The notes beneath the pieces were generated by a model. That model did no database searches, was not told the origin of the DNA, and saw nothing but the letters and a program-made list of their open reading frames with translations. From NCBI RefSeq assembly GCF_014879935.1, contig NZ_JACSRD010000222.1, positions 1 to 64,000 on the forward strand: a stretch of DNA of 64,000 nt. The letters are read 5' to 3'. This DNA comes from Prosthecobacter sp. (lineage in GTDB: Bacteria > Verrucomicrobiota > Verrucomicrobiia > Verrucomicrobiales > Verrucomicrobiaceae). Below are positions 1,081-63,569 of the stretch, one piece after another (positions within the stretch are counted from its first letter, which is position 1; each line of letters opens with the position of its first letter). Made by a program: the position numbers and the translations under genes.

Positions 1081-1129
1081 GTCATTCGGGCCGCATTCGT
1101 CATTCGACATTCCGTGATTCGTCATTCAC
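1081..1129. repeat. Heptanucleotide tandem repeat, ATTCGTC/ATTCGAC type, in a divergent promoter region
   Basis: Degenerate 7-base units of the form ATTCG(T/A)C alternate across about 49 bp, with one diverged unit (GGGCCGC) and one extra base. The tract lies between the rhodanese-like gene and pssA, and ends 11 bp before the pssA ATG. It is the same repeat family, in reverse complement, as the tract at 43601-43628 inside rfbB. Confidence 0.7.
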
Positions 1130-1140
1130 CTTCCGCCCTC

Positions 1141-2078: not shown

Positions 2079-3299
2079 ATGGCAGATTTCTACCAGCACG
2101 CCCGCGTTCCGACCCTGCACCACCTCGCCCACGCGGACAGCTCCGCGCGCGAGACAGAGATGCAGTCCCTGGCGGACAAGCCGGTGGCGCTGCTGCTGCC
2201 CGCCCTCTACGCCGAATGCGAGCGTCCCGCGCTGCCCCGCATCCTTGAGGAGGTCTCCCAGGCCGGCCACATCAGCGAGGTCATCCTCAGCATGAACGGC
2301 ATGGATGCTGCCGAGCACGAACGCGCGCTGCGCATCTGCCGCCAGCATCTTCGAGGCAAACCGACCCACCTCCTGTGGAATGACGGTCCCCAGCTCACCC
2401 GCGTTTATCAACGCATGGAGGAGGCGGGGCTCGCTGGCTCGCATGCGGGCAAGGGCTCCAACATCTGGATGGGCATCGCCTACCTCCACGCCCGCGGCTT
2501 CAACGGCATCATCGTCAGCCACGACACCGACATCCTGAACTACAGCCGTGATGTCCTGTGGCGCCTGTGCTACCCGCTGCTGCATCCGCGCATGGGTTAC
2601 CACTTTGCCAAAGGCTACTACAGCCGCGTCTCCGACCGCCTGTATGGCCGCGTGACACGCCTGCTCATCTTTCCTCTCGTACAGGCTTGTCGCGATGTCC
2701 TCGGCACCAAGCCGCTGCTCGAACACCTCGAAAGCTTCCGCTATCCCCTGTCGGGTGAATTCGCCGCCGACATGAGCGCCCTTGAGCGCTTCAGCCTACC
2801 CGGCGGCTGGGGGCTGGAGGTCGCCATGCTCTGCGAAGTCTTCCGCCATCTGCCGGGAGAGCAGCAGTGCCAGGTGGACCTCGGTTTCCACTTCGAGCAC
2901 CGCCATCGCAACCTCACGCACGAACAGGTCGGCGTGAACGAACCCGGTCTGGTCTCCGCCGCCGCCGACGTGGCCCGCTGTCTGGCCTGGCAAGTGCTGC
3001 GAGAGGCCGAACCGCGTTCCGCGCACAGCCTCATGGACCGCATCATCGAACGCTATCGTCCACGCGCCTCTGAATGGCTGAGCCGCTACGAACACGTCGC
3101 ACTTCTCAACGGCCTGCATCACGATCTTGAAGAAGAGACCGCCGCCGTCACCGCCTTCGGCCGAGCACTCGACCAGCTTCTTCAAACCATCGACACCGAC
3201 GGTCTCCGCGTCCCCGCCATGCGTGAGCCACCAGCGAAAACTCTGGCCGCTATCCCGGGTCTCCCGGAAGAAATCGTCGCCAGCGCGACGAGATTGTGA
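2079..3299 (+). CDS. GT81-like glycosyltransferase (glucosyl-3-phosphoglycerate synthase type)
   Basis: The 406-residue protein resembles GT81 glucosyl/mannosyl-3-phosphoglycerate synthases, which transfer a sugar from a nucleotide sugar to 3-phosphoglycerate to start synthesis of the compatible solute glucosylglycerate. Supporting motifs are the nucleotide-sugar strand VALLLPALYAE, the phosphate-binding stretch HAGKGSNIWMG (about 122-132) and the metal-binding acid pair HDTD at Asp149/Asp151. The C-terminal half carries HRHRNL and a helical region typical of the family. No glucosylglycerate phosphatase or hydrolase gene is adjacent, so the actual acceptor is unproven. The gene is apparently monocistronic, 140 bp before polA. 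Confidence 0.7.
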   Translation: MADFYQHARVPTLHHLAHADSSARETEMQSLADKPVALLLPALYAECERPALPRILEEVSQAGHISEVILSMNGMDAAEHERALRICRQHLRGKPTHLLWNDGPQLTRVYQRMEEAGLAGSHAGKGSNIWMGIAYLHARGFNGIIVSHDTDILNYSRDVLWRLCYPLLHPRMGYHFAKGYYSRVSDRLYGRVTRLLIFPLVQACRDVLGTKPLLEHLESFRYPLSGEFAADMSALERFSLPGGWGLEVAMLCEVFRHLPGEQQCQVDLGFHFEHRHRNLTHEQVGVNEPGLVSAAADVARCLAWQVLREAEPRSAHSLMDRIIERYRPRASEWLSRYEHVALLNGLHHDLEEETAAVTAFGRALDQLLQTIDTDGLRVPAMREPPAKTLAAIPGLPEEIVASATRL

Positions 3300-3440
3300 G
3301 GGGCGTGTAAAGCCGCGCCATCACCGCTTTGATCACCGGCTCCCCGTCATTGGAAACTTCCCACGGCAAGCTGAATCCGGGGTGACGAACGTCCCATCCT
3401 CGTTTGCGCCTCTCTCGCATCCGCCTACCCTCGCGATCAC

Positions 3441-42972: not shown

Positions 42973-43983
42973 TCACAAGGTCTGTGTCAGATACCACGTC
43001 ACTGTCTCGCGAATGCCAGACTCAAAGCTGTGAGCTGGTTTCCAGCCCAGCTCACGGTCAATTTTGGATGCATCGATGGCATAGCGGCGGTCGTGCCCGG
43101 GGCGATCGGTGACGAAGGTGATGAGGTTGCGGGAATCGCCTCCCAGTTCCGGCTTCAACTCATCAATGAGGTCGCAAATCTGCTGCACGAGGTCGAGGTT
43201 GGCCTTTTCGTTGCAGCCACCGATGTTGTAGGTCTCACCGTCTTTCCCGGTGGTCAGCACCGTCCACAGAGCCTCGCAGTGGTCGCCCACATGAAGCCAG
43301 TCACGCACGTTCATGCCATCGCCGTAAACAGGAACCGGTTTGCGGGCGAGAATGCTCTGGATGACGACCGGAATGAGTTTTTCCGGGAACTGACGCGGCC
43401 CGTAGTTGTTCGAGCAATTCGTGATGACCGCCGCCAGACCGTAGGTGTGGTGGTAGGCACGCACCAGCAGGTCGCTGGAGGCCTTGGAGGCGGAGTAAGG
43501 TGAATTGGGCGCGTAGGGCGTGGTTTCGGTGAAGAAGCCGGTTTCGCCGAGCGAGCCGAAAACCTCATCCGTGCTGACGTGGTGAAAGCGGGGCTTCAAT
43601 GTCGAATGACGAATGTCGAATGACGAATCCAACCAGTGAGCGCGGCAGGCTTCGAGCAGGTGGAAGGTGCCGTTGATGTTTGTGGTGATGAAATCCGCCG
43701 GACCGGAGATGCTGCGATCAACATGCGATTCCGCCGCCAGGTGCATGACATGAGTGATGTCGTGTTCACGGACAACCCGGATGACCTCGCCCTTGTCCCG
43801 CAGATCGACCTTTTCGAACACGTAACGAGGATGAATACCGTGAATGCCATCGAGGTTCTCAAGCCGGCCGGCATACGTGAGGCAGTCGAGATTGACCAGT
43901 TTCGCGATGCCGCCCTTGTCAATGACTTGGCGAACAAGGTTGGAGCCGATGAAGCCCGCGCCTCCGGTGATGAGAAGATTCAT
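42973..43983 (-). CDS. rfbB: dTDP-glucose 4,6-dehydratase with a repeat-encoded loop
   Basis: RmlB/RfbB converts dTDP-glucose to dTDP-4-keto-6-deoxyglucose. The 336-residue product has the NAD motif [22 protein letters not shown], the catalytic YSASK and the [12 protein letters not shown] signature of the family. Residues about 119-128, in the loop before RFHHVS, are encoded by the heptanucleotide repeat at 43601-43628. That loop varies in length among homologues. It sits 5 bp after the epimerase/reductase gene, in the order rfbA, reductase, rfbB. The start ATG at 43983 is set by the NAD motif. Confidence 0.95.
43601..43628. repeat. Heptanucleotide tandem repeat, GTCGAAT/GACGAAT type, inside rfbB
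   Basis: Four perfect 7-base units alternate GTCGAAT and GACGAAT. In reverse complement they are ATTCGAC/ATTCGTC, the same family as the tract at 1081-1129. The tract is in frame in rfbB and encodes a Ser/Phe/Asp/Ile/Arg/His-rich loop segment. Confidence 0.85.
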
Positions 43984-55091: not shown

Positions 55092-55167
55092 GTTCGCGGT
55101 TCCCGGTTCGCTGTTCTCAGTTCCCAGAAACCGCGAACGGCGAACGGCGAACCGAGAACTGTGAACT
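55092..55167. repeat. Heptanucleotide repeat arranged as an inverted repeat
   Basis: Five units of the form GTTCxCx (55092-55126) are followed after 6 bases by five units of the form GxGAACx (55133-55167). The right half is the reverse complement pattern of the left, so the whole tract can form a long imperfect hairpin. It occupies the divergent intergenic region between the nucleotidyltransferase gene and the CdsZ-like gene, ending 36 bp before the latter start. Confidence 0.8.
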
Positions 55168-62955: not shown

Positions 62956-63569
62956 GCCAGATCGAATTCCAACTGCGCCACAGGCGCGAACGTGCGCCGA
63001 TGATGCGGACAGGGGCCATGCTTTCGCAAAGCCGCGAGATGCGCCGGCGTGGGATAGCCTTTGTGGCATTCAAAGCCGTACTCGGGATGGGCCTGCGCGA
63101 GCGCCATCATCAGGCGGTCACGGGTGACTTTGGCGATGATGCTGGCCGCGGCGATCGAGTAGCTGAGGCTGTCACCTTTGACGAGCGCCACATGATGCAG
63201 CGGGTACTGCTTCACCGGCTTGCCATCGATCAGGACGGCATCCGGTTTGGGATCGAGCGCCAAGGCGGCGCTGCGCATGCCTTTCCAGGTGGCCTGGAGG
63301 ATGTTGATGCGGTCGATTTCATCCACCTCGATGCTCACACAGTGCCAGCGGATGCGATCATCGCCGGTGATCTCCTCATATAAACGCTCCCGCGTGCTCT
63401 CACTGAGCTGTTTGGAGTCATTCAACACGCGATGGCGGAAATTCTCCGGCAGCACCACCGCGGCGACACACACCGGACCGGCCAGCGGCCCGCGGCCCGC
63501 CTCATCGACACCGGCGATGACACGGAAGCCGGAGGCACGGAGGGTATTCTCGTGTTTGAGCGTGGGCAT
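62952..63569 (-). CDS. rnhB: Ribonuclease HII
   Basis: 205 residues from ATG 63569 (MPTLKHENTLRASG). RNase HII removes ribonucleotides from DNA. The active-site Asp and Glu are in VIAGVDEAGRGPLAGPV, a further Asp in VLIDGKP, and the last conserved region is SIIAKVTRDRLM. Typical for the family in length. It is followed by yraN with an ATGA overlap, and lies 31 bp after the truncated gene upstream. Confidence 0.95.
   Translation of the reverse strand: MPTLKHENTLRASGFRVIAGVDEAGRGPLAGPVCVAAVVLPENFRHRVLNDSKQLSESTRERLYEEITGDDRIRWHCVSIEVDEIDRINILQATWKGMRSAALALDPKPDAVLIDGKPVKQYPLHHVALVKGDSLSYSIAAASIIAKVTRDRLMMALAQAHPEYGFECHKGYPTPAHLAALRKHGPCPHHRRTFAPVAQLEFDLA

Follow-up and report, generated by a model that had tools for sequence, protein, structure and literature searches.

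The rfbB gene of a Prosthecobacter sp. carries a tandem array of 7-base units, which raises the question of how a repeat with such a unit comes to be read in frame within an enzyme, and whether it stands alone or is one copy of a larger family. The gene lies in a 64-kb stretch of contig NZ_JACSRD010000222.1 (positions 1 to 64,000), hereafter the window, in which the following features were delineated.

42973..43983, minus strand: rfbB (rmlB), predicted dTDP-glucose 4,6-dehydratase, 336 aa, intact (TIGR01181, PDB sequence matches, AlphaFold2 model)
43598..43628, minus strand: heptanucleotide array ATTCGTC/ATTCGAC in RmlB, D119-L129 (TRF, ORF translation, shuffles)
1094..1135, plus strand: second array, AATGACG family, 5-13 bp upstream of a putative start ATG at 1141 (TRF rows, pattern matches)
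55092..55167, unstranded: inverted pair of another heptamer family, GTTCGCG / AACCGCG (TRF and array comparison)

A further heptamer array was seen at 63479-63500.

On the plus strand, 43598-43628 comprises 4.4 copies of the 7-base unit AATGACG, alternating between GAATGAC and GAATGTC, and can equally be described as 2.2 perfect copies of the 14-mer AATGTCGAATGACG (TRF score for the 14-mer, 62). The coding (minus) strand of the array is ATTCGTCATTCGACATTCGTCATTCGACATT, within the intact 336-aa ORF 43983..42973; in the sense of rfbB it reads ATTCGTCATTCGACATTCGTCATTCGAC, in units ATTCGTC and ATTCGAC, and encodes D119-L129. The pattern ATTCGWCATTCGWC, with up to one mismatch allowed, had four matches in the window, all of them exact; 100 dinucleotide shuffles of the window gave a mean of 0.10 matches and none reached four, which excludes chance for the array. 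The alternating units that an earlier note on this DNA had described inside rfbB are thus borne out, and the coding-strand reading agrees with its statement that the array sits in the loop directly before the 10-residue segment that it named. The same note had placed a second copy of the unit family at 1081; the copy exists, and its coordinates are better given as 1094-1135. Because this second array ends 5-13 bp before the candidate ATG, it looks like a leader.

By sequence, the rfbB product appears to be a full dTDP-glucose 4,6-dehydratase, scoring 465 bits against TIGR01181 (cut-off 365) and giving near full-length matches to PDB 1bxk and 1g1a. In an AlphaFold2 model built from 36 sequences, the mean pLDDT was 91 overall and 61 for residues 121-130, a block located between a helix (95-118) and a strand (132-138) that runs into STDEV. 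The array residues are accordingly predicted to form a low-confidence loop before that strand. A unit of 7 bases cannot be divided into whole codons, and successive copies are accordingly read in each of the three frames in turn; the peptide cycle of the ATTCGTC repeat is IRHSSFV and holds no stop. In the GAATGAC sense, each of the frames runs into a TGA by the third unit at the latest; the ATTCGTC sense is open, which explains its occurrence in the longer coding arrays.

We next turned to the RmlB loop of relatives. The loop has 24 codons in the source genome. Its length ranged from 12 to 38 codons across 26 genes of the genus and from 14 to 30, with a median of 21, across 82 loci from outside the genus. 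Aligned with relatives, the repeat-encoded residues were absent there and the flanks aligned, as the earlier note had proposed, and the loop sequence varied among genera rather than being conserved. The array therefore fills a loop of already variable length, so that the notion of an expanding loop is only partly right for rfbB: the array does lie in the loop, but the loop already spans 12-38 codons in the genus. A period-7 segment scoring at least 9 was present in the loop of 7 of the 26 genus rfbB genes and elsewhere in the gene in none of the 26; codon-shuffled loops gave a mean of 0.005 of 26 at this score, with a maximum of 1 in 200 rounds. None of six genus loci read later had a loop array scoring at least 9, bringing the total to 7/32. 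Outside the genus, one of 82 loci had such a loop array (L053, Desulfuromonadales), and 14 further loci of the order had no RmlB loop array.

The loop units differed between genomes, being ATTCGTC in the source genome, CATCCAG-like in G032 and G025, GAACCAG in G008, AAATCTC in G010, GAGGTCA in G015 and TTCGAAT-type in G009. The loops of G027, G011, G030, G002 and G020 resemble decayed CATCCAG arrays by eye, at scores below the threshold. G026, the sister of the source species (support 100/99 on the gcpE tree), has a 21-nt repeat in the loop instead. Some of these units were dispersed in their own genomes (42 matches in G015, 14 in G032 and 4 in G025), and the exact loop-unit patterns of G008 and G010 matched only at rfbB; both capture from a dispersed family and local growth therefore fit. 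On the rfbB tree the loop families required 7 changes, a count that is uninformative because shuffled labels gave 6-7; the labels of G004, G012, G027, G011, G030, G002 and G020, all scoring below 9, were assigned by eye. Three rfbB loci had other peculiarities. In L048 (a Thioalkalivibrio MAG, one of the 82 loci outside the genus), a CACTCAT-type heptamer array lies at rfbB nt 829-852, not in the loop; in L161 (G016, 906-1970), the loop has 47 codons and no clear heptamer period; and in L162 (G023, 2493-3404), rfbB aligns without the STDEV-bearing stretch, as a gap, a misassembly or a damaged gene would produce.

The distribution of the family was then determined. Two tandem AATGACG-family units matched 194 times in the 7.74-Mb assembly and a reversed control pattern not once, so that the rfbB array has many other copies in its genome, where the earlier note had asked for a search. 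At least one match was found in 30 of the 34 other genus members and in 4 of 21 genomes from other genera of the order. In a wider draw from the phylum, 47 of 288 genomes (source genome included) had a match, most with 1-4; the largest counts were those of the source genome (194), G210 (70), G251 (65), G231 (16), G073 (14) and G017 (11).

The arrays were also examined for period. In 656 kb of the source genome, 39 exact arrays had period 7, every other period from 4 to 13 had at most 4, and periods 14 and 21, multiples of 7, had 14 each; one Markov simulation of the sample gave no array at period 7. Per-kb array rates in this sample are biased upward, because 36 of its 40 stretches were picked for known AATGACG arrays; array positions were taken from the first places in the match lists of the source genome and its relatives. 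In 399 kb of genus relatives not selected for repeats, period 7 had 26 arrays, period 15 had 11, period 14 had 9, periods 9 and 10 had 4 each, and all remaining periods had at most 4. The counts in 454 kb of other phyla were 5 at period 7 and 7 at period 8. As 104 kb of the source genome not selected for arrays held one period-7 array (score at least 12) and two period-12 arrays, all small counts, the whole-genome excess of period 7 rests on the pattern counts and the relatives. Dispersed heptanucleotide repeats, which in cyanobacteria are called STRR, are defined by features that are all present here: a 7-nt period, found in the array-picked stretches and in genus relatives, occurrence at many genomic places and an intergenic bias.

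Several unrelated units share the 7-nt period. Among arrays outside the AATGACG family, similar units were found in 11 of 11 pairs from the same stretch versus 55 of 199 pairs from different stretches, the pairs not being independent. Arrays lay at or near the starts of contigs C27, C28, C43, C69, C110, C133, C147 and C153 of the source genome (G000) and at the end of C120. Since the assembly seems to break at such places, the true number and length of arrays are probably underestimated.

Regarding placement, 36 of 51 AATGACG arrays were outside genes and 15 inside, in a sample that was 90.5% coding. Genes were called by a home-made program, and of 62 arrays 11 were left out because they lay too close to a stretch end; some of the 15 genic arrays are near uncertain gene ends. 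Near 3' gene ends, 16 of 20 arrays had the gene's own sense; near 5' ends, 14 of 16 had the opposite sense. Sixteen neighbour pairs were less than 250 bp apart, 15 of them head-to-head (GAATGAC> <GTCATTC), one in the same direction and none reversed, and 31 arrays of the family were single, without a neighbour partner. In the 15 inverted pairs, the spacers between arms ranged from 10 to 119 bp, and no common spacer sequence was seen by eye. The arms of a pair matched each other no better than they matched the arms of other pairs (permutation p 0.60, 15 pairs). Selection for the hairpin as such was therefore rejected, own-pair arms being no more complementary than cross-pair arms.

Besides that of rfbB, genic arrays were found in the following proteins, those of the AATGACG family being in genes with Pfam or NCBIfam support.

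B12 radical SAM protein: AATGACG-family array, residues 183-193, between its two domains
Squalene-cyclase-like protein: AATGACG-family array, residues 367-377
GcpE: two AATGACG-family arrays
Molybdopterin oxidoreductase: AATGACG-family array, residues 598-609, between domains
CbiX/DR2241 protein: AATGACG-family array, residues 318-328, between domains
Redoxin-type protein: AATGACG-family array, residues 23-32; may precede the true start
ThiC: other-family array, residues 178-189
1318-residue protein: other-family array, residues 304-316
Another protein: other-family array just after its DUF7133 domain, residues 477-487

As background, the home-made caller gave an array in 18 of 510 coding sequences and at 20 of 484 gene starts of the array-rich source-genome sample.

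The proposal that repeats seed peptides into proteins found its best support in gcpE (ispG). An in-frame insertion of 38-39 residues separates RLLVA.L from WNYPIHLGVTEA in the source species, G031 and G014. Of the 39 genomes, 37 matched gcpE and 30 loci were read, with 7 matched genomes left out; the site was filled in 3 of these 30 loci, and the other 27 had the same 40-residue stretch without the insertion. The insertion consists of an inverted array pair and, judged by eye, about 45 nt of non-repeat sequence. An in-frame insertion with an empty site in relatives, as expected of a Rickettsia-type palindromic element, is thus present at gcpE. A clade uniting the carriers (G000, G031 and G014) was rejected for the gcpE tree (AU p 0.0015), and the site was empty in G026, a relative of the source species, and in G057 and G008, relatives of G014. 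This distribution requires that the insertion moved by exchange, arose more than once or was replaced by empty alleles.

In ThiC, the corresponding stretch could be read in 25 of 30 loci with the anchors used; it was 47 residues long in 16 and longer in 9. Arrays scoring at least 12 occurred in 5 of the 25 readable loci, belonged to three families and accounted for five of the nine long loci. Two sites carried GTTTCAA-type units and their complement in G000 and G011, GGAATGC-type units and their complement were found in G015 and one G028 copy, and in G031 the second site alone was filled, with CATCACG-type units. The longer loci L187, L200, L202 and L204 had no period-7 segment with a score of 9; at site 1 of L187 (G024), a 21-residue insertion is not a heptamer array.

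The leader of thiC was also analysed. A TPP riboswitch (Rfam) was located upstream of thiC in all eight loci tested. Thirty leader loci were collected, one of which had no readable start, and 29 were scored. Within 60 bp before the start, a period-7 segment scoring at least 9 was found in 15 of 29 species, and periods 5, 6 and 8-11 reached this score in none of the 29. The units were of AACTTGA, GAACCAA, GAACCGC, CATCTAG and CTCAGCC types. Different unit families are therefore found at the same RmlB loop, the same ThiC sites and the same thiC leader. In L183 (G015), a heptamer array of about 100 bp (CTCCGCC/CTCAGCC) fills the leader to 4 bp before the start codon.

On a thiC tree of 21 species, the leader family needed 12 changes, and shuffled labels needed 9-13, with 168 of 200 shuffles at 12 or fewer; the unit family of the leader carries no detectable inheritance or phylogenetic signal. 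Merging the two GAACC families reduced the count to 9 changes, with shuffles at 7-10. Six of the 21 labels (G000, G057, G032, G003, G005 and G002), scoring below 9 in the 60-bp window, were assigned by eye, and the trees carried no label for 8 of the 29 scored leaders, among them those of G030 and G059, which look AACTTGA-like. An earlier labelling of 17 species, some by eye, needed 11 changes, as many as those label counts permit. Exchange of the leader together with its flanks was rejected as an explanation: for the 21 species, 11 changes were needed on the riboswitch tree, 12 on that of the first 450 nt of thiC, 11 on both combined and 12 on that of 1900 nt, indicating that unit and flanks are not transferred together.

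The arrays are dispersed, share a 7-nt period, lie in frame in several enzymes and, at gcpE, are matched by empty sites in relatives. We consider it rather probable (about 60%) that the rfbB array, lodged in a tolerant surface loop of RmlB, belongs to a family of short heptanucleotide arrays of 7-bp-quantum origin found throughout the genome. The genus would make or copy arrays with a 7-bp quantum in many unit families, of which the AATGACG family would have spread to many loci of the source genome, chiefly between genes; coding arrays would survive only if the total change keeps the frame, the orientation is open and the place tolerant. The simplest account would combine a high rate of 7-bp-quantum growth, shrinkage and homogenisation with copying of arrays between loci. 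Arrays would then arise and be replaced by 7-bp slippage and array-array recombination, rather than by a dedicated transposase; we infer both the slippage and the inter-locus copying, and the encoded peptides would presumably be near-neutral passengers. A unit length that three does not divide is no bar to a repeat's entry into coding sequence, and the data suggest continual rewriting of short segments, in proteins and in gene leaders, by a process that generates repeats. One enzyme loop with different repeat families, together with empty sites and flanks, provides a natural series for tracing how new protein segments originate. The inverted pair and the approximately 45 nt of non-repeat sequence at gcpE are more than slippage by itself produces, and because the gcpE carriers are not a clade, the account also needs exchange or repeated gain.

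A further reading, which we hold to be doubtful, is that sites rather than sequences are inherited. The RmlB loop, the two ThiC sites and the riboswitch-thiC linker would keep 7-bp arrays, and an as yet undescribed process that writes heptamers would replace their units wholesale, more rapidly than species separate. If so, the genus would continually invent peptides and leader sequences in place.

Known systems resemble parts of this picture. The TAACTGA arrays of Beggiatoaceae are dispersed 7-nt tandem repeats, mostly intergenic, often just before start codons and in some cases in ORFs, one set falling in a region where the RNA polymerase beta prime subunit has a surface loop (PMC4679880). 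The arrays described here are alike in dispersal, intergenic bias, pre-start positions and presence in some ORFs, but there a single unit is involved, and here the families are many and can differ at a single loop, inverted pairs occur and empty sites are available for comparison. The GGGAATC and GGGGA(C/T)T arrays of Xanthomonas and Nostoc, 11% and 7% intragenic in two xanthomonads and 68% intergenic in Nostoc, share the heptamer, dispersal, intergenic bias, location near gene ends and length variation between close species (PMC4692102, which also mentions Calothrix heptanucleotides in this context). Those arrays are, however, G-quadruplex-forming, with one main unit per organism, whereas the units here have no G-tracts. 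Borg tandem repeats likewise evolve fast and create new protein segments, which in Borgs are disordered regions, but the unit lengths of their ORF repeats are all divisible by three, and 7 cycles through all frames (PMC9879509). Polymerase slippage favouring 7-nt steps was proposed by Mrazek and colleagues (cited in PMC4692102 and PMC4679880), and the present arrays make that older proposal testable in one genus. Dispersed bacterial heptamers, one of them in an RNA-polymerase loop region (PMC4679880), and palindromic repeats in ORFs (PMC3733652) are already published according to these texts. Our literature search found no paper in which different heptamer families recur at a single orthologous loop or leader, nor one on heptamer arrays in Verrucomicrobia proteins.

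REP and BIME elements are imperfect palindromes that end in a GTAG or CGTC tag, and the ATTCGTC unit contains CGTC. It is possible, if not the reading we favour, that the inverted GAATGAC arms bound a small, non-autonomous palindromic element of REP or RPE type, inserted in and between genes by a Y1 (RAYT/IS200-type) or other transposase. The fixed polarity of the inverted pairs and the in-frame gcpE insertion with empty sites are as such an element would predict. The source genome also has 27 Y1_Tnp matches, more than any other of the 35 genus members searched, and array counts correlate with Y1-transposase counts (rank rho 0.54, n=35; 0.48 per Mb), a correlation confounded with genome size and kinship. 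Both the polarity and this correlation look transposon-like and count against the 7-bp-quantum account. Rickettsia palindromic elements and CGTC REPs are, as the text of PMC3733652 describes them, palindromic repeats inside unrelated genes, and no dedicated transposase was found for the CGTC REPs; they have a defined stem-loop consensus, in contrast to the degenerate heptamer arms with variable spacers, or the single arrays, seen here. Against a mobile element, the 10-119 bp spacers have no common sequence by eye, own-pair arms match no better than others, and the RmlB and thiC-leader copies are single arrays. Three observations speak against the simple mobility that the earlier note suggested: no cognate transposase was found at the Y1 loci read, the exact loop units of G008 and G010 are confined to rfbB in their own genomes, and the units at one site change without phylogenetic pattern, as local turnover would explain no less well than insertion.

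Two other explanations fared less well. dTDP-sugar synthesis is linked to surface polysaccharide, and a 7-bp step in rfbB shifts the frame, so that array copy number might switch or tune RmlB and other enzymes in the manner of phase variation; we regard such a selected contingency repeat as improbable, considering that arrays of this family and others also occur in thiC, gcpE and other housekeeping enzymes and mostly between genes, and that the rfbB array is mid-gene, in a loop and not at the start. Several arrays do lie at contig ends, where lengths are unreliable, but chance or an assembly artefact is scarcely credible given that the reversed control was zero, that the gcpE insertion appears in three assemblies and that the rfbB array is in an intact ORF within the 64-kb window.

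Candidate enzymes were also considered. The reverse transcriptase DRT10, described in a preprint (PMC12632851), was weighed among them. A telomerase-like or other RVT_1 reverse transcriptase was disfavoured as the array writer: no PF00078 (RVT_1) match was obtained in G029 (41 array matches, 95% complete), G008 (23, 96%) or G005 (17, 99%), indicating that a resident RVT_1 enzyme is not required. A cognate RAYT was likewise disfavoured. Twenty Y1 loci were read, comprising 10 of the 27 in the source genome and 10 from G012, G014 and G015, and a heptamer array lay less than 1 kb from just one of them, at a distance of 742 bp. Five of the 20 had other inverted repeats within 400 bp (L245, L248, L251, L259 and L260, at 170-370 bp), those of L248 and L260 with AGCCCTGAAAGGGC-type arms; these are possibly the REP or terminal repeats of the Y1 loci themselves.
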